Part shown: one piece after another, positions 7,487 to 46,674 of the stretch
Layout of the letters: the number at the start of each line of letters is the position of its first letter
How positions within the stretch are numbered: the first letter of the stretch is position 1
Source: Solirubrum puertoriconensis
GTDB lineage: Bacteria; Bacteroidota; Bacteroidia; Cytophagales; Hymenobacteraceae
Direction of reading: 5' to 3'
NCBI RefSeq assembly: GCF_001483135.1
Contig: NZ_LNAL01000005.1
Coordinates: 62,001-126,000, forward strand
Length of the DNA: 64,000 bases
Notes under the pieces: generated by a model
Seen by the model: the letters and a program-made list of their open reading frames with translations, nothing else
Databases searched by the model: none
Told to the model about the DNA's origin: nothing
Program-made: the position numbers and the translations under genes

Positions 7487-8644
7487 ATGAGCACCGTAAC
7501 CCATACCGCCTCTTTTCTGCACGAGCGCCGGCTGGCGGTGGTCTTACCCGGCTTCGTGGTGCCCTGCGCCGCCCTGGTCTTCTGGCTGCTGGGCGGCGGG
7601 CGGCCGGCATCAGCCCCGGTAGATCAGTCGGGTCTGGGTGGGCTTAACACCGAGCTGCCCGGCGCCGCCGTCAGCCGGGGCCGCAACCTGGGCAGCAAGC
7701 TCAACGCCCGGCTTTCTGCCGACTCCGCCCGCGGCTCCGAGCTCGCCTTCACGCCCCGCCGCCAGCTGGCCGGGCCCGGCCTCAACTACGGCCTGCAGCC
7801 CGGAGAAGCGGCACCCGACAGCAGCCGGCCGGATGCCCGAGCCACGGCCGCCGCACGCCAGCTCATGGCCCTGCAGCGGCAGACTTACGCCGAGCCTGCA
7901 CCCGCTTCAACTTTCCACCCCATCGATAGGGGAGGGGAGGAGCGGCCGCAGCGCAGCGCCGAGCAGGACGAGTTGGATCGCTCCCTGGCCGAGCTGGAGC
8001 TGCTGAAGGCGGAGTACGAGCGGCGTTTGCGCTCAAGCCCCGCTGCCAGTGCCCCACCGGCCGCCCGAAGGCGGTTAAAGCCCACAGTGCTGCAGCCGCC
8101 CAGTCCCAACGTTGTTTCCTCCCTGGCTGGCAGCCCAAGCCGGGCAAGCCGGTCGGGCTTCCACACCCTGAGCGACGCCGTTCCCGACGAAACCGCCAAC
8201 GCTTTGCCGGCGGTGGTGCACACCGACCAGGCCGTCGTCAGCGGGGGCACGGTCAAGCTCCGGCTAAGCGAGGAGGCCCGGGTTAATGGGCAGCTACTGC
8301 CCCGCCACACCCTGGTGCACGGGCAGTGCCGCCTGACCGGGGAGCGCCTGCGCATTGAAGTGCGGGGCGTGCAGGTAAACAACCGCCTGCTGCCGGTGAG
8401 CCTGCGGGCCTACGACCTGGACGGCACCGAAGGCCTGTTCGTGCCTGGGGTGCCCACCGGCGACGCCTTGCGCCAGAGCGTGCAGCCCGGCCTGAACGCC
8501 GCGGAGGCGTTAGCCCTTACTTCCCACGCCGGCGCCGCCGCGGCGGGCGTAGCCCTGCAAACCGGCAAAAGCCTGCTCGGGCGCCGGGCCCGGCAGGTGC
8601 GCATTACCCTCAAAGCCAACCACCAGATTCTGCTTAAGCCATGA
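7487..8644 (+). CDS. traM: Conjugative transfer protein TraM (VirB10-like)
   Basis: 385-residue protein with a single N-terminal membrane helix (about residues 20-37, VVLPGFVVPCAALVFWLLGG), a long Pro/Ala/Arg-rich periplasmic linker (about 40-235) and a C-terminal beta-rich domain containing VVHTDQAVVSGGTVKLRL and YDLDGTEGLFVPG, as in TraM proteins. TraM corresponds to VirB10, which spans the envelope. It overlaps traN by ATGA at 8641-8644. No separate traL gene is visible between traK and traM. Confidence 0.85.
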   Translation: MSTVTHTASFLHERRLAVVLPGFVVPCAALVFWLLGGGRPASAPVDQSGLGGLNTELPGAAVSRGRNLGSKLNARLSADSARGSELAFTPRRQLAGPGLNYGLQPGEAAPDSSRPDARATAAARQLMALQRQTYAEPAPASTFHPIDRGGEERPQRSAEQDELDRSLAELELLKAEYERRLRSSPAASAPPAARRRLKPTVLQPPSPNVVSSLAGSPSRASRSGFHTLSDAVPDETANALPAVVHTDQAVVSGGTVKLRLSEEARVNGQLLPRHTLVHGQCRLTGERLRIEVRGVQVNNRLLPVSLRAYDLDGTEGLFVPGVPTGDALRQSVQPGLNAAEALALTSHAGAAAAGVALQTGKSLLGRRARQVRITLKANHQILLKP

Positions 8645-9531
8645 CCTACCGTCCGCTACTTTCCCTGCTGCTGTTGCTTGCTGCCCTGGCCCGTCCTGCT
8701 TTAAGTCAGCAGCCCGTGCTGAGTTTTGAGTCCCGGCAGGCCGTCGCCGCCTACCGCCTGGGGGTGGGGCAGCAGAAAACCACCCACCTGGTGTTTCCTT
8801 ACGCCGTCACCTACGTGGATCTGGGCAGCCGCGACATCATCGCCGCCCGGGCGGAAAGCGCCACCAACATCGTAAAAGTGAAAGCCAACCGGGCCGGCTT
8901 TCCCGAAACCAACATGACGGTGCTGGCCGCCGACGGTAAGCTGTATTCCTTTCTGGTGCACTACGAGCGCAATCCCCGGCTGCTAACCCTGGATCTCGGA
9001 GCCGGCGCCGGGCCGGGTGCCCCGCGGGTGCAGCTGCGCAACCAACCGGCCACCCAGCCCCAGCTGGAGCGGGCCGCCCGTCTTGCCCTGGCCAGAGCGC
9101 CGCGGGGCCGGGGTCGCACCCGGCAGGACATCCAGCTGCGGGCCGGGGAGCTGTACACCGACGGGCAGTCCTTTTTCCTGCCCCTGCACGCCCGCAACAA
9201 CTCGCGCGTTCCCTTCGACGTGGACTTTGTGCGCCTGTACCTGCAGGACCGCCGCCGGGTACGCCGGACGGCCGAGCAGCAGCGCTCCCTGCAGCCCTAC
9301 TACGTTTACAACGCTAGCCAGATCCAGCTGCCCGGGGGTGGGAAGCTAAGCCAGGTGCATGTGCTGCGCAAGTTTACTTTTCCGCCCAGCCAGCAGTTAA
9401 TGGTGGAGCTCTTCGAAAAAGGGGGCGGCCGCCACGTGACCCTGCCGCTGTCGCACCGGCGCGTGCTTCGTGCCCGGCCGGTGCCCGCTGAAACCCCGGA
9501 GCTGGCCAGCACGGCCGAGGGCCGCTTATAA
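8641..9531 (+). CDS. traN: Conjugative transfer protein TraN (VirB9-like, DUF4138)
   Basis: 296-residue secreted protein with a signal peptide ending near ALSQQ. The segment TTHLVFPYAVTYVDLGSRDIIA is the hallmark of TraN/DUF4138 proteins, the outer-membrane core components equivalent to VirB9. It is the last tra gene visible. Its stop codon TAA (9529-9531) lies inside the first iteron of the replication origin (9524-9543), so the transfer operon and the origin are fused with no spacer. Confidence 0.87.
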   Translation: MTYRPLLSLLLLLAALARPALSQQPVLSFESRQAVAAYRLGVGQQKTTHLVFPYAVTYVDLGSRDIIAARAESATNIVKVKANRAGFPETNMTVLAADGKLYSFLVHYERNPRLLTLDLGAGAGPGAPRVQLRNQPATQPQLERAARLALARAPRGRGRTRQDIQLRAGELYTDGQSFFLPLHARNNSRVPFDVDFVRLYLQDRRRVRRTAEQQRSLQPYYVYNASQIQLPGGGKLSQVHVLRKFTFPPSQQLMVELFEKGGGRHVTLPLSHRRVLRARPVPAETPELASTAEGRL

Positions 9532-9995
9532 AACCTTTCCTTTCAGATGAGCCCCTAGGAGCTTCGGGTTGACGCCCGCTTATAAAACCTTTCCTTTGGA
9601 GTGTTAGGGTAAGCTGTGCTCCAACCGTGCTGCAGCTTATAAAACCTTTCCTTTAGCGGGTAAGGCAGCGGCCCCGGCGCGTCCGGCTCGTGGCTTATAA
9701 AACCTTTCCTTTAAAGCATAATAGTCGTCTGCGCGCTGCAAAGGGCTTATGATTTCTTTCCTTTGGCTGCGGCACGCGCGGGCAGCATGCTCATGTTCCC
9801 AACCAGCGGCCTTTCCGGCCAGCCGCCAGCGGGCTTATAAAACCTTTCCTTTCAGTTATCCAGCTGTCGCTGGCACCTCCTGTCGGGCTTGTGCTAGTTG
9901 CCGGGCGCTTAGATGGTCGGCCCACGCTTATAAAACCTTTCCTTTTGCCCATATGCCGTTAAGGCGCTTACACAGGCTTATAAAACCTTTCCTTT
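9524..9995 (+). repeat. Iteron array A: eight direct repeats (probable oriV part)
   Basis: The 20-bp unit GCTTATAAAACCTTTCCTTT occurs seven times without mismatch, at 9524, 9578, 9635, 9693, 9833, 9926 and 9976. A degenerate copy (GCTTATGATTTCTTTCCTTT) is at 9745. Start-to-start distances are 54, 57, 58, 52, 88, 93 and 50 bp. Perfect short direct repeats beside a Rep_3-type initiator gene are the classical structure of an iteron-controlled plasmid origin. The intervening DNA is GC-rich and unrelated between units. No open frame here looks coding. Confidence 0.9.
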
Positions 9996-10133
9996 GGAGG
10001 TGCTGGTCTTAAGGCCCAGATGAAAGCTAATGGGGCACTGGTGAGGAGCAGAGGAGCAAATGGCTGCTAATAGGCGCTGTCTTAGGTAACATTGGAGGAT
10101 GACCACGCTTCGCCTTGGTAGGATCATTAGGTT

Positions 10134-10381
10134 AAAGGAAAGGGATTATAAGTCAATTATTAAATATATTGAAACATATATTGAAAAAGTGCAATCCCTT
10201 AGGTTGGCTGCGCATTTTTGCTGTGTTTTTGTTTTTTTCTTGTTGATCGGCCCTGCTTTGGCTATCCCCCCACCTTAATATACCCTTTTGCTGGAGCTTG
10301 ACACAATTTGTGAAGTATTTGTATTGTTTGTCTTATTTGCAGGGCTTGTAAGTTATTGATAAATAAGGAGCTGCGGGCGTT
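10134..10381. other. AT-rich candidate DNA-unwinding region
   Basis: This stretch is strikingly AT-rich against a GC-rich background. It starts with an inverted single iteron (rev. comp. CTTATAATCCCTTTCCTTT, 10134-10152) and contains ATATATTGAAA twice (10164-10174 and 10176-10186, a 12-bp period). Together with the flanking iteron arrays it is the best candidate for the melting region of the origin. I see no perfect DnaA box. Nothing in the 9996-10564 interval looks protein-coding. Confidence 0.6.
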
Positions 10382-10487
10382 TTGGGAAAGCTTTTATAAG
10401 CGAAAAGAAAGGGATTATAAGCCCTGCGGAAAGGTTTCATAAGCGAAAGGGAAGGGATCATAAGCGCTTGGGAAAGGTTTCATAAGC
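10382..10487 (-). repeat. Iteron array B: five phased inverted copies upstream of rep
   Basis: Five related 20-mers in the opposite orientation to array A start at 10382, 10403, 10425, 10446 and 10468, that is every 21 or 22 bp, two helical turns. On the minus strand they read GCTTATAAAAGCTTTCCCAA, GCTTATAATCCCTTTCTTTT, GCTTATGAAACCTTTCCGCA, GCTTATGATCCCTTCCCTTT and GCTTATGAAACCTTTCCCAA. A decayed sixth copy may continue to about 10508. The array ends about 77 bp before the rep ATG, so it probably serves both initiation and Rep autorepression. Confidence 0.85.
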
Positions 10488-10564
10488 GAAAGGAAAGAAT
10501 ATAGGGAAAAACTTTCCTTAGCTCTTTCCGTTTGCTTAGCTTAGCTCGTCTTTTCCCCTCTACT

Positions 10565-11491
10565 ATGAAGCAAAGCGACTCGGCCGCCATTGAGATCCGG
10601 CAGCACAACGCCATCACCACGGCCCGTTACGAGATGACGGCCTGCGAGATGGACGTGGTCTTCTATCTGCTTTCCCTGCTGAAAAAAGAAGACCGCACGG
10701 GGACGCTTTACAAGGTGCGGGTAAAGGATCTGGAAAGCCTGACCGGCCGGCAGTGGAACTACCAGCAGTTTCTCGAGGCGACATCCTCGCTGCGCACCCG
10801 CGAGTACGTGATCGAGGACAAAAAGCGCCTGTTGCAGGTAGGCTTGCTGGCTTCGGCCGAATACCTCAAGGGTGAAGGGGTAATTGAGCTGGAAATTTCG
10901 GAAAAGATCCGGCCTTACCTCATCGACCTGAAAAACAACTTTACTTCCTACCGCCTGCAGGCGGCCTTCTCCCTGTCGAGCAAGTACGCCAAGCGCATCT
11001 ACCAGATTGCCTCGCAGTGGAAGGACGTGGGTGAGAGCAAGACCTTTACTATCTCGGACTTCAAGGTGATGCTGCACCTCAAGGACCCCAAGGGCATCGA
11101 GTCGGAGCAGTACACCAAGGTGTCCATGTTCCAGAAGTTCGTGCTCGATGTCGCGGTTAAGCAGATCAACCAGCACACCGACCTGCAGATTCAGTACGAG
11201 CTTATCAAGAAGGGCCGCTCGTTTGAAAGCATCCGCTTTTTCATCAAGCAGCAGACCCCGCACCAGCTGCCCCTGCAGTTTGAGCGCCCCGCCGAGGACG
11301 GCAAGGTAGAGCTGGCCCGCCAGCACCTCAAAACCCTGGGCATCGTCGATCCCCAGCTGGTTGACCGCATTCTGGGCGAGGACCGGCTGGTCGGCGAAGT
11401 CAACGCTTTTGCCTACAAGCTGAAAACCCAGAAGATCAAGGCCGAGAAAAACCCCGCCGGCCTGCTGCTCAAGGTGCTGGGCTTGCGCTAA
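10565..11491 (+). CDS. Plasmid replication initiator, Rep_3 family
   Basis: 308-residue initiator that should bind the adjacent iterons and start plasmid replication. The N-terminal winged-helix part contains IRQHNAITTARYEMTACEMDV and FYLLSLL followed by KVRVKDLESLTGR; the second winged helix contains SFSLSSKYAKRIYQIASQWK-like sequence (AAFSLSSKYAKRIYQIASQW) with FTISDFKVMLHL. This is the two-winged-helix layout of RepB/RepE (PF01051) proteins. ATG 10565 is chosen because the upstream in-frame extension (TTG 10532) has no homologous character. It converges with the downstream hydrolase gene, leaving 12 bp between stops. Confidence 0.9.
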   Translation: MKQSDSAAIEIRQHNAITTARYEMTACEMDVVFYLLSLLKKEDRTGTLYKVRVKDLESLTGRQWNYQQFLEATSSLRTREYVIEDKKRLLQVGLLASAEYLKGEGVIELEISEKIRPYLIDLKNNFTSYRLQAAFSLSSKYAKRIYQIASQWKDVGESKTFTISDFKVMLHLKDPKGIESEQYTKVSMFQKFVLDVAVKQINQHTDLQIQYELIKKGRSFESIRFFIKQQTPHQLPLQFERPAEDGKVELARQHLKTLGIVDPQLVDRILGEDRLVGEVNAFAYKLKTQKIKAEKNPAGLLLKVLGLR

Positions 11492-11503
11492 GCCGCCCTC
11501 ACC

Positions 11504-12514
11504 CTAGCGCAGCGGCGCCAGAAAGGCATCTACCCTGGCCGCAAAGTCCGGGTGGGTGTGCACCCCGTGGTGGTCCCGGCCCTCGTAACGAAAGTATTCC
11601 ACCTCCGTTTCCCGGCCCAGCGAACGCAACGCCTCGTGCAGCCGCTCGCCTTCCGCCGGCGGCACGATGTAATCCCGGCTGCCGAGGTGAAGCTGCACCC
11701 GGGGCAACCGCGCGGCAAAGTATAACGGGGAGCTGGCCAGCAGGCGGTGGCGGGCCTGGGCCAGCGTGATGCGCCCCTCCCGGAGCTCCTGCAGAAACTG
11801 CAGCTGGTAGGTAGGATCGTTCACGTGAGACCTGGTCAAACCCAGCAGGTCGGTGGGGCCTACCACGTCGATGGCCCGCCGTACCCGGGCGTCGCGCTCC
11901 GCCAGCAGCAAAGCCACCGTGCCGCCCCGGCTGCCCCCGCGCAGGGCAATGCGCCCGGTGTCGGCACCCGGTACGGTGGCAAGCACGACGTTCAGCAGGG
12001 CCTGCGCATCGTCGGCTGCGCCATCAAACGCTTCGCCGAGCGGGCCCTCCGATACGGGCCGGTCGTAGCTGCGGCCGTCGACGATCACCCGCAGGCCTTG
12101 CCCCCGAAAGGCTATCCAAGCCTGGATAAAAGGCGAAGGTGCCGCCGTGGCGCTGCCGGCTGGCCGTAGCTCGATTGCCTGGGACTCGGCTGTAAACCCG
12201 CCAAAGTGCAGCTGCACCGGGTGAGGCCCCAACCCGCCCGGCACGAATACGGCCGCCTGGGTGCGGTAAGCTCCGGTTAGAAACGAGATAAAGCGCAGCT
12301 CCGCCCCCGCGGAAAGCGGTATGGTCTGCTCCAGCTGGTAACCCTTGGGGGCTAGATTACGGGCTGCCCAGTCGGTTTGCACCGCGGCCAGCTCAGCGGG
12401 GGTAGGTGGGGCAAACAAAGCGTTCTTGTCGATGCCCTCCAGGTAGTCGTCTTTTTTACAAGCCACCGCGGCCAGCAGCAGGGCGGCGGAAAGGTAAAGG
12501 CGCAGTTGTTTCAT
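11504..12514 (-). CDS. Lipoprotein alpha/beta hydrolase
   Basis: 336-residue lipoprotein with lipobox AAVAC near residue 19 followed by KKDD. The alpha/beta-hydrolase fold is indicated by the nucleophile elbow GGSRGG at residues 193-198 (Ser195), a following VVGPTDLLGLT segment, DYIVPP (acid loop) and the terminal GRDHHGVHT with the likely catalytic His. It resembles prolyl oligopeptidase-type or carboxylesterase-type peptidases; the substrate cannot be told. ATG at 12514 is preferred over the longer frame because the lipoprotein signal begins there. Confidence 0.75.
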   Translation of the reverse strand: MKQLRLYLSAALLLAAVACKKDDYLEGIDKNALFAPPTPAELAAVQTDWAARNLAPKGYQLEQTIPLSAGAELRFISFLTGAYRTQAAVFVPGGLGPHPVQLHFGGFTAESQAIELRPAGSATAAPSPFIQAWIAFRGQGLRVIVDGRSYDRPVSEGPLGEAFDGAADDAQALLNVVLATVPGADTGRIALRGGSRGGTVALLLAERDARVRRAIDVVGPTDLLGLTRSHVNDPTYQLQFLQELREGRITLAQARHRLLASSPLYFAARLPRVQLHLGSRDYIVPPAEGERLHEALRSLGRETEVEYFRYEGRDHHGVHTHPDFAARVDAFLAPLR

Positions 12515-45442: not shown

Positions 45443-46405
45443 TTAAATGGTATTCAGCCGGCTAAGCAGGGCAATGCGGTGGCTAGGTCCAATGGGTACT
45501 TTGACGGGTTGCGGGCCGGCGAGGCTAAGGAAGTCGCCGGCTATGGTGTGGATGCAGCTTTGCCGCACAATGTATTTGCGGTGAACCTGCACGAACTCGC
45601 GGGCCGGCAACCGCGCCAGTAAGCTCTTAAGCGTGGCGTAGACCGTGTAGCGCTGGCTGTTGGCGTGAATGTGCACGTAGTCGCCTAAGGCCTCGAGGTA
45701 CACGACATCGGCGGTATTAACGCGCACAAACCGGCCGTCCTGCTTGAGGAACAGCTCCTGGTCGCCCCCGCTTATACCCGCTTCGCCGCCTTCGTTGATC
45801 TGATGCAGAAGCTCTTCGAGCTGCTTCTGCTCCTGCTCAAGCTGAACTTTGGCCCGCCGCAGCTCCAGGTTGAGGACGGCCTCGTGGGCTAGGGCTCGCA
45901 GCCCGTCGCGCTGCGCCTCGCTGAGCCGGTGGGGCTTGAAGTCAAAAGCGCAGATGGAACCAATGGTGTGGCCTTCGGCCGTGACCAGCGGGGCGCTGGC
46001 GTAAAACCGCACGTGGGGCTGCTCGGCTACGAAGGGGTTGTCCCGGAAGCGGGCGTCCGTGGTGGTATCTTCCACTTCAATCAGATCCGACGCCAGGAGC
46101 AGGTGCTGGCAGAAGGTCATTTCCATGGGCAGGCTGCCGGGCAGCTCGTAGCCGTGCGTGGCCTTGAAGAACTGCTGCTGCTCATCAAGCAGGGTTACCA
46201 GGGTAACCGGGGCTTGGCAGACGTAAGCCGCCAGCCGGGCCAGGTTATCGAATGCTTCTTCCGGATCCGTATCAAGCACGGAATAAGCACGCAGGGCCGT
46301 CAGCCGTCCCTGGTCACTTATGGCCCGTAGCAGTTGCGCCGTGTAGGCAGCGGGCAGCTGCTGGAAGGGGTTGGATGAAGTAATAGGCTGAGTTGGTTGC
46401 GGCAT
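45443..46405 (-). CDS. GAF-LytTR DNA-binding regulator
   Basis: 320-residue cytoplasmic regulator. A GAF sensor domain spans about residues 40-180 (FDNLARLAAYVCQAPVTLVTLLDEQQQFFKATHGYELPG, SAPLVTAEGHTIGSICAFD). A helical linker follows, then a C-terminal LytTR DNA-binding domain (about 220-320, FVRVNTADVVYLEALGDYVHIHANSQRYTVYATLKSLLARLP and FVQVHRKYIV). It lacks a receiver domain, so it should sense a small molecule or redox state directly through GAF. Target genes are unknown. Confidence 0.9.
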   Translation of the reverse strand: MPQPTQPITSSNPFQQLPAAYTAQLLRAISDQGRLTALRAYSVLDTDPEEAFDNLARLAAYVCQAPVTLVTLLDEQQQFFKATHGYELPGSLPMEMTFCQHLLLASDLIEVEDTTTDARFRDNPFVAEQPHVRFYASAPLVTAEGHTIGSICAFDFKPHRLSEAQRDGLRALAHEAVLNLELRRAKVQLEQEQKQLEELLHQINEGGEAGISGGDQELFLKQDGRFVRVNTADVVYLEALGDYVHIHANSQRYTVYATLKSLLARLPAREFVQVHRKYIVRQSCIHTIAGDFLSLAGPQPVKVPIGPSHRIALLSRLNTI

Positions 46406-46674
46406 AGGGGGGTAGGGCCACTGAATTTATGGCGACCGCGGTATCGGCGGCAGGCGATCAGGTAGAAAAATCCAAACGAAGATGCCTGTGCCCGTCATCC
46501 TTCGGCAGTCTGAAGTTACACCGATGCCGCCTCTTTTTGTTTTAACGGCGCTACCATAACCCTTGATGCTGCTTAAAGAAGTACGACGTCTCCTTCCCCA
46601 ATTAACGCGCAGGAGCTCCGTAAACCAGTTTGTGATGGTGCAAGCCAACCCGCAGCTTTGTGCTCCAAACCTAC

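Follow-up and report, generated by a model that had tools for sequence, protein, structure and literature searches.

Why should a plasmid origin carry one repeat in two arrays, a tight one directly before the replication gene and a loose one farther upstream that faces it? The question is raised by the window, by which we mean the whole 64,000-nucleotide stretch of DNA analyzed here, corresponding to bases 62001-126000 of contig C5. The ends of this contig overlap by 174 bp, and C5 is therefore probably circular, a plasmid of about 258.9 kb (rounded, 259 kb). A sequence-only reading of the window had described the two arrays, termed A (upstream) and B (next to rep) herein, as one origin and had left the role of array A between copy control, handcuffing, and partition. 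We consider it likely, from sequence comparison and by analogy with known iteron plasmids, that 9524-10564 is a replication control region in which array B would initiate replication, the inverted repeat at 10490-10519 would serve as operator, and array A would control copy number by handcuffing or by Rep titration.

Repeats and initiator gene in the window

A pattern scan recovered seven perfect copies of the 20-mer GCTTATAAAACCTTTCCTTT and one degenerate copy, all on the forward strand (Table 1), at intervals of 54, 57, 58, 52, 88, 93, and 50 bp, which confirmed the counts, coordinates, and spacing (50 to 93 bp, 9524-9995) given earlier for array A. The isolated inverted copy and the five inverted copies 21 to 22 bp apart before rep were likewise recovered; the 20-mer of the former extends over 10134-10153, the 17-bp cores of the latter span 10385-10487, and the previously given start at 10382 is the edge of the 20-mer. 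Array A and the isolated inverted copy together are termed the outlying sites of the window. With up to three mismatches, nine matches to the 20-mer occur in the window (mean and maximum of 0 in 100 dinucleotide shuffles), and the whole 4.8-Mb genome contains 10, the nine at the window origin and one on contig C4. Array A begins within the final codons of a traN-like gene that closes a row of conjugation genes and whose counterpart in a sister plasmid, NZ_CP110137.1, is annotated as traN.

Table 1. Positions of repeats, elements, and genes (window coordinates, except for the last two rows, which give positions on contig C5)
Feature	Position	Strand	Remarks
traN-like gene (DUF4138)	8641..9531	+	Pfam PF13595, 190.8 bits
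Array A site 1	9524..9543	+	perfect 20-mer
Array A site 2	9578..9597	+	perfect
Array A site 3	9635..9654	+	perfect
Array A site 4	9693..9712	+	perfect
Array A site 5	9745..9764	+	degenerate copy GCTTATGATTTCTTTCCTTT, core GATTTC
Array A site 6	9833..9852	+	perfect
Array A site 7	9926..9945	+	perfect
Array A site 8	9976..9995	+	perfect
Isolated inverted site	10134..10153	-	3 mismatches
AAAGTGCAATC-like element	10185..10200	+	conserved, few changes, in nine aligned loci
CACAA..TTGTG inverted repeat, then TATTTG-like repeats	10302..10340	+	nine-locus alignment, same iteron class
Array B site 5	10385..10401	-	17-bp core
Array B site 4	10406..10422	-	17-bp core
Array B site 3	10428..10444	-	17-bp core
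Array B site 2	10449..10465	-	17-bp core
Array B site 1	10471..10487	-	17-bp core
Inverted repeat AAGGAAAG-n14-CTTTCCTT	10490..10519	.	iteron right halves
rep, Rep_3 replication initiator	10565..11491	+	PF01051, 114.7 bits (cut-off 22.4); PF21205, 54 bits (cut-off 21.1)
ParA-like gene	C5:508-1341		
DUF3408 gene	C5:1371-2012		

The two arrays differ in their phasing. The cores of array B are spaced by 21, 22, 21, and 22 bp and thus form helically phased direct repeats before rep, as do the arrays of relatives, and two core types alternate among them (AAA or AAAG-like versus ATCCC) with a period of 43 bp, in the sister plasmid as well. Array A shows no helical phasing at 10.5 bp (Rayleigh P = 0.86; 14 spacings, window and sister plasmid pooled), and phasing of A sites in other plasmids is borderline (R = 0.19, P = 0.06, n = 74). 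The variant fifth A site also occurs in the sister plasmid (GATTCC there), and in plasmids with CTTAC iterons, ATTTC is the usual core of A sites and the majority of B sites carry other cores; arrays A and B may perhaps be distinct subtypes.

The gene after array B encodes a Rep_3 initiator, as had been proposed: both Pfam models exceed their cut-offs, the protein has a WH1 domain match above cut-off and a WH2 domain, and it matches RepE-type and pi chains of solved structures (E values of 3e-9 to 1e-7). Just left of array B stands the conserved CACAA..TTGTG/TATTTG block, which recurs in two other iteron classes, in small plasmids, and in the coresident plasmid C4; a simple pattern for its first part was found in 54 of 70 loci. 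The AT content is 60% in 10261-10384 and 67% in 10155-10260, versus 46% in 9501-10000. By composition and conservation, the block is the AT-rich element that iteron plasmids have beside their iterons; it is likely the DNA unwinding element, its melting being predicted. The AAAGTGCAATC-like element borders the stretch of 67% AT.

A scan of 9401-10600 with the Escherichia coli-type DnaA box pattern gave no match. TTATCCACA (at most one mismatch) occurs in 3 of 70 loci, and plasmid C4 carries one perfect copy. No Rfam match reached the gathering score in 8500-11600. A sigma-70-type scan of 9400-10700, whose model does not cover Bacteroidota promoters, gave two promoter-like sites (0.9 expected), and the same approach gave one terminator-like site against 2.2 expected.

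The short stretch between array B and rep contains an inverted repeat of iteron right halves, whose first arm continues the 21-bp register of array B. Both half-sites are free of mismatches in the window, where none of 10 foreign half-sites fits equally well. Across 53 distinct related loci, a search for inverted pairs of the half-site belonging to each plasmid gave a best pair with no more than one mismatch in 29 and no pair in 3, and the second arm is poor in the CTATCC class. This repeat is likely the rep operator. The sequence-only reading had rightly seen phased iterons in array B, ahead of a Rep_3 gene; it had also assigned autoregulation to the inverted B copies; for the latter role the separate half-site repeat is the likelier site, and the B copies look like the origin core because a phased array is present in small plasmids too.

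Outlying sites in related plasmids

The closest relatives among the matches listed are Hymenobacter plasmids, as had been guessed. In the sister plasmid (NZ_CP110137.1 of Hymenobacter sp. YIM 151858-1), Rep is 97% identical and the entire layout recurs, with a counterpart of the isolated inverted site at the same place. The nine outlying sites are 93% identical and the B sites 92%, versus 41% for the spacers between A sites and 53% for the stretch from A to B, where nonhomologous spacers align at a baseline of 28%. DNA identities of genes are 92% for rep (856/927), 81% for traN (715/888), 75% for traM, and 87% for traG. The spacers thus appear to be nearly worn out, while the sites and their rough distances have been kept.

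Rep homologues were collected from 58 genomes (28 with a match), a genome collection (34 loci), and plasmid records. From 74 loci, we dropped L095 and L105 (no anchor) as well as L009 and L078 (upstream DNA too short) and excluded L079, L101, L104, and L106 as duplicates, leaving 66. Merging 11 near-identical loci and removing L048 and L071, in which the B pattern was not recognized, gave the 53 distinct loci. Outlying sites were sought with a separate matrix for every plasmid, derived from its array B, and the best score of 60 shuffles served as the threshold. The survey found outlying copies in 49 of the 53 loci, at least two in 45, and at least two upstream in 40. The sites are concentrated at the origin, with 215 matches in the 900 bp left of array B (47.7 kb in total) compared with 3 in the other 671 kb of the loci fetched. 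Judged by these pattern matches, the two-array layout is not peculiar to the window plasmid.

The four loci without any outlying copy (L068, L070, L080, and L081) lie on contigs of 6 to 16 kb. Downstream matches occur in eight loci (L052, L061, L062, L064, L065, L066, L097, and L100), and in L064-L066 the bulk of the second array lies downstream of rep. L049, L050, L113, L114, and L115 (four copies in the last) have another phased array, oriented like B. Among the upstream outlying sites located -860 to -560 from the Rep anchor, 90 of 117 run against array B, so that the two face each other, and orientation is mixed for the sites nearer to the anchor (26/60 opposite) and farther from it (17/41). 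L044 (G023:C11) has three pairs of outlying sites, each with a distance of 34 bp within the pair, which looks like the repetition of a block several hundred bases long.

An automatic array finder scored 38 of 40 further loci and reported upstream outlying sites in 34; those without were L153, L157, L159, and L160, the last two with overlapping contig ends. Its counts agreed with those of the first method to within one site in no more than 44 of 53 loci, and in L043 and L044 it recovered no site at all; we therefore used its results just for L159, L160, and two contigs of 156 kb, L169 and L170.

The presence of outlying sites was then compared with plasmid size in 29 plasmid records, and in 34 plasmids once C5, C4, and three contigs with overlapping ends were included; the counts cover part of the known plasmids only, 27 records having been fetched from 60 listed among 4,979 with a match. 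Seventeen plasmid loci had been added, of which L126 (212 kb, no clear array) was unscored and 16 were scored, L137 being excluded afterwards (short upstream DNA); L107 and L112 enter the counts through their near-identical counterparts L072 and L086. Upstream outlying sites were found in 0 of 13 scored plasmids of <20 kb (11 plus L159 and L160), among which the record of L121 is marked linear and L124 was scanned for 541 bp upstream only; two of the 13 have one downstream match each, one weak and one strong. All 23 scored plasmids of ≥38 kb, the window's included, have one to nine outlying sites, the large records L048 and L126 standing outside this scoring. The contrast can be seen within one cell: the coresident plasmid C4 (L009, G000:C4; 12.3 kb, contig ends overlapping), whose Rep is 49% identical, has an origin of the same kind with the unwinding block and five perfect 17-bp iterons of another sequence, and no outlying site was found anywhere in its whole circle.

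Site number correlates with plasmid size (Spearman coefficient of 0.86 for the 34 plasmids and 0.58 for 22 of ≥38 kb), and a graded scaling was considered and rejected, there being only two independent changes of size class on the Rep tree and hence no power. Array class shifts alike in both of these changes, which constitutes no test. In the clade of L131 and L132, the 38-kb plasmids have two sites, and so do the two 156-kb contigs. Because the size split is clustered on the tree and the count is flat within this clade, we limit the claim to presence versus absence, which fits a control of low copy number if, as we assume, the small plasmids of this Rep family are multicopy.

The small plasmids also bear on the initiation of replication. 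As they have related Reps and a phased array with no upstream copies, array A is probably not needed to initiate, and the earlier description of both arrays as one origin was too strong. That array A helps initiation as an enhancer or a Rep-loading element would suit its conserved sites and its place just upstream of the likely unwinding element, but we regard this as most improbable in view of the 13 small plasmids and of L064-L066, where the second array is mostly downstream of rep.

Rep specificity and the proposed working of array A

If one Rep is to read both arrays, their sequences should change together across plasmids, and they do so. Of 264 sites found by the left half alone, 180 carry the right half of their own plasmid within one letter; given a foreign right half differing in at least three letters, 0.7 sites fit on average. 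Arrays A and B would thus be read by the same protein. The Rep sequences offer some indication of how this might occur. WH1 residue 68 is R in all 14 plasmids with CTTAC iterons and in none of 39 others, and at residue 65, H occurs in 6 of 7 CTGAT plasmids (the exception is L044) and N in the 46 others. On the tree, this corresponds to one change for CTTAC and to three for CTGAT, two of which are forced by well-supported branches. The pattern agrees with WH1 reading the left half of the iteron and is confounded with ancestry. WH2 columns 184, 185, and 188 track the right half, but WH1 columns 106, 88, and 114 rank higher, so that a division of labor between WH1 and WH2 over the two half-sites can be suggested only tentatively. 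Iterons of coresident plasmids tend to differ (1 close pair of 23 versus 3.8 expected; P for 1 or fewer, 0.064), which is the direction expected from incompatibility and is not significant as proof of it.

The joint change of sites and Rep also weighs on partition, one of the roles offered earlier for array A. As a partition site or centromere, array A would be bound by Rep or by another partner; its several dispersed copies, the lack of upstream copies in the scored small plasmids, and ParA genes within a few kilobases of rep in some relatives are in keeping with this. However, the outlying sites follow Rep specificity, and about 71 kb from the origin C5 has a ParA-like gene paired with a DUF3408 gene (locus L141, C5:508-2012), which is accompanied by another repeat: six copies of TGATAACAT lie in about 0.65 kb around the contig junction, and none was found in the 64-kb window. 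For these two reasons partition is the less likely role, and we hold it to be very unlikely; an extra array of the same site is best read as copy control. The ParA-like/DUF3408 pair may itself serve partition or conjugation, and with its TGATAACAT repeats it is a candidate centromere or transfer site. No PF02195 ParB was found on C5, the sole match of the genome being on C8, so that the pair does not make up a ParABS system by this mark. It may also belong to conjugation, like TraA/TraB of conjugative transposons.

We propose that the region works as follows. Rep monomers would occupy the five phased sites of array B and cause strand opening in the AT-rich element (10302-10340), sites and element forming the origin core, and Rep bound to the inverted half-sites at 10490-10519 would repress rep. 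The dispersed, oppositely oriented A sites would bind the same Rep and act negatively, both by titrating it and by pairing with Rep-loaded B sites. Pairing could occur in trans between sister plasmids or in cis, where the facing arrays would come together and loop the DNA over the unwinding element that separates them, and such a handcuff would bend the DNA over that element. Origins would stay shut until growth lowers the concentrations of Rep and plasmid. From sequence comparison come the shared site, the joint change, the conservation of sites over spacers, the position next to the origin, and the lack of upstream copies in the scored plasmids of <20 kb; Rep binding, strand opening, repression, looping or handcuffing, and a lower copy number are expected from the behavior of known iteron plasmids.

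Pairing and titration are indistinguishable from sequence, and array A might be a pure Rep sink or buffer that titrates Rep without pairing with B and so sets the threshold for initiation. Seven of the eight A sites in the window match the common consensus without a mismatch, versus one to four mismatches in the B sites, and A might thus fill first. But the better fit of A is clear in the window only and weak in the sister plasmid, and in most other plasmids of the window's class the B sites match the consensus as well as the A sites or better, so that we rejected it as a general feature; in addition, a sink has no need of facing the unwinding element. We consider a pure sink unlikely and retain copy control by handcuffing or titration. 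A bolder form of this copy-control reading, which we put forward tentatively and with some doubt, is that the dispersed array of this Rep_3 family is a separable governor added to an unchanged origin core, with which the plasmid would be large and low-copy and without which it would be small and multicopy, Rep bridges clamping the unwinding element in a closed loop. If this were true, growing plasmids would tune their copy number and incompatibility by gaining, losing, or resetting the string.

Relation to known two-array origins

Control by a second group of iterons has precedents. Plasmid P1 has in incA a second iteron group that controls copy number, resembling the window in this and differing in its position downstream of repA. 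In RK2, iteron 10 has an outlying place. Removing iteron 10 from the IncP-1 (RK2) oriV raises the copy number (PMC11983097); this is a single iteron, compared with eight A sites and one isolated site in the window. A negative correlation between iterons outside the initiation site and copy number is also stated, with reference to other work, in PMC9602619. In pPS10, RepA binds the operator as dimers and the iterons as monomers, forming separate complexes (PMC4857107).

The FIA replicon of F has four iterons in oriS and five in IncC, the latter limiting copy number, such that deletion of IncC raises it (PMC13028717). F resembles the window in its initiator family (by the sequence match to RepE), its two iteron arrays, its AT-rich opening region, and the autoregulatory inverted repeats before repE (PMC13028717). 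It differs in the place of IncC, which lies downstream of repE, whereas array A is found upstream, on the far side of the likely unwinding element, and has sites 50 to 93 bp apart that face B. It differs also in having two DnaA boxes, whereas the scan of 9401-10600 with the E. coli-type pattern gave none. The FIB replicon likewise has two sets of Rep sites, the upstream BCDD' and the downstream E-K iterons, of which the outer set is tied to replication control and inhibits a target replicon (PMC11983097). As in these replicons, the site of the origin core recurs in the window in a further set beyond that core; the control set of FIB is downstream of rep, and that of the window is upstream and dispersed. 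L064-L066, with the second array mostly downstream of rep, resemble F and FIB in this respect. By analogy, the window array would work like IncC or the outer FIB set, and we do not file it as one of them.

In Vibrio cholerae ori2, regularly spaced iterons (ori2-min) adjoin further iterons in the regulatory ori2-inc (PMC6090056), and the likeness to the window is one of site layout, initiation iterons with further iterons next to them. The system differs in its initiator, RctB, in its additional 39-mer and 29-mer sites, and in its control by methylation (PMC6090056). Its extra iterons are dual, titrating the initiator and also restraining another inhibitor (PMC6090056); that they are not purely negative speaks against too simple a copy-control reading of array A.

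Two-array control is thus already known, and the upstream, dispersed, facing layout common to a family is a variant of it. A literature search joining iterons, Hymenobacter, and plasmid, with most subscription journals outside its reach, found no paper, and no such layout in this group was found among the papers listed, as far as their titles and the openings of their abstracts go. Across the family, one Rep type and a phased core are combined in nature with a second array that varies, and these variants let the number and layout of outer Rep sites be tested against copy number and incompatibility in large Bacteroidota plasmids.

Two further sequences were noted in the survey. L063 (G035:C1:1730581-1731477) places a Rep_3 gene with five phased iterons on a 4.8-Mb contig and may represent an integrated plasmid or the second origin of a chromosome. 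On G146:C4, two Rep genes with equal scores are separated by about 100 kb (45632-46540 and 146177-147085), perhaps a cointegrate or an effect of assembly.
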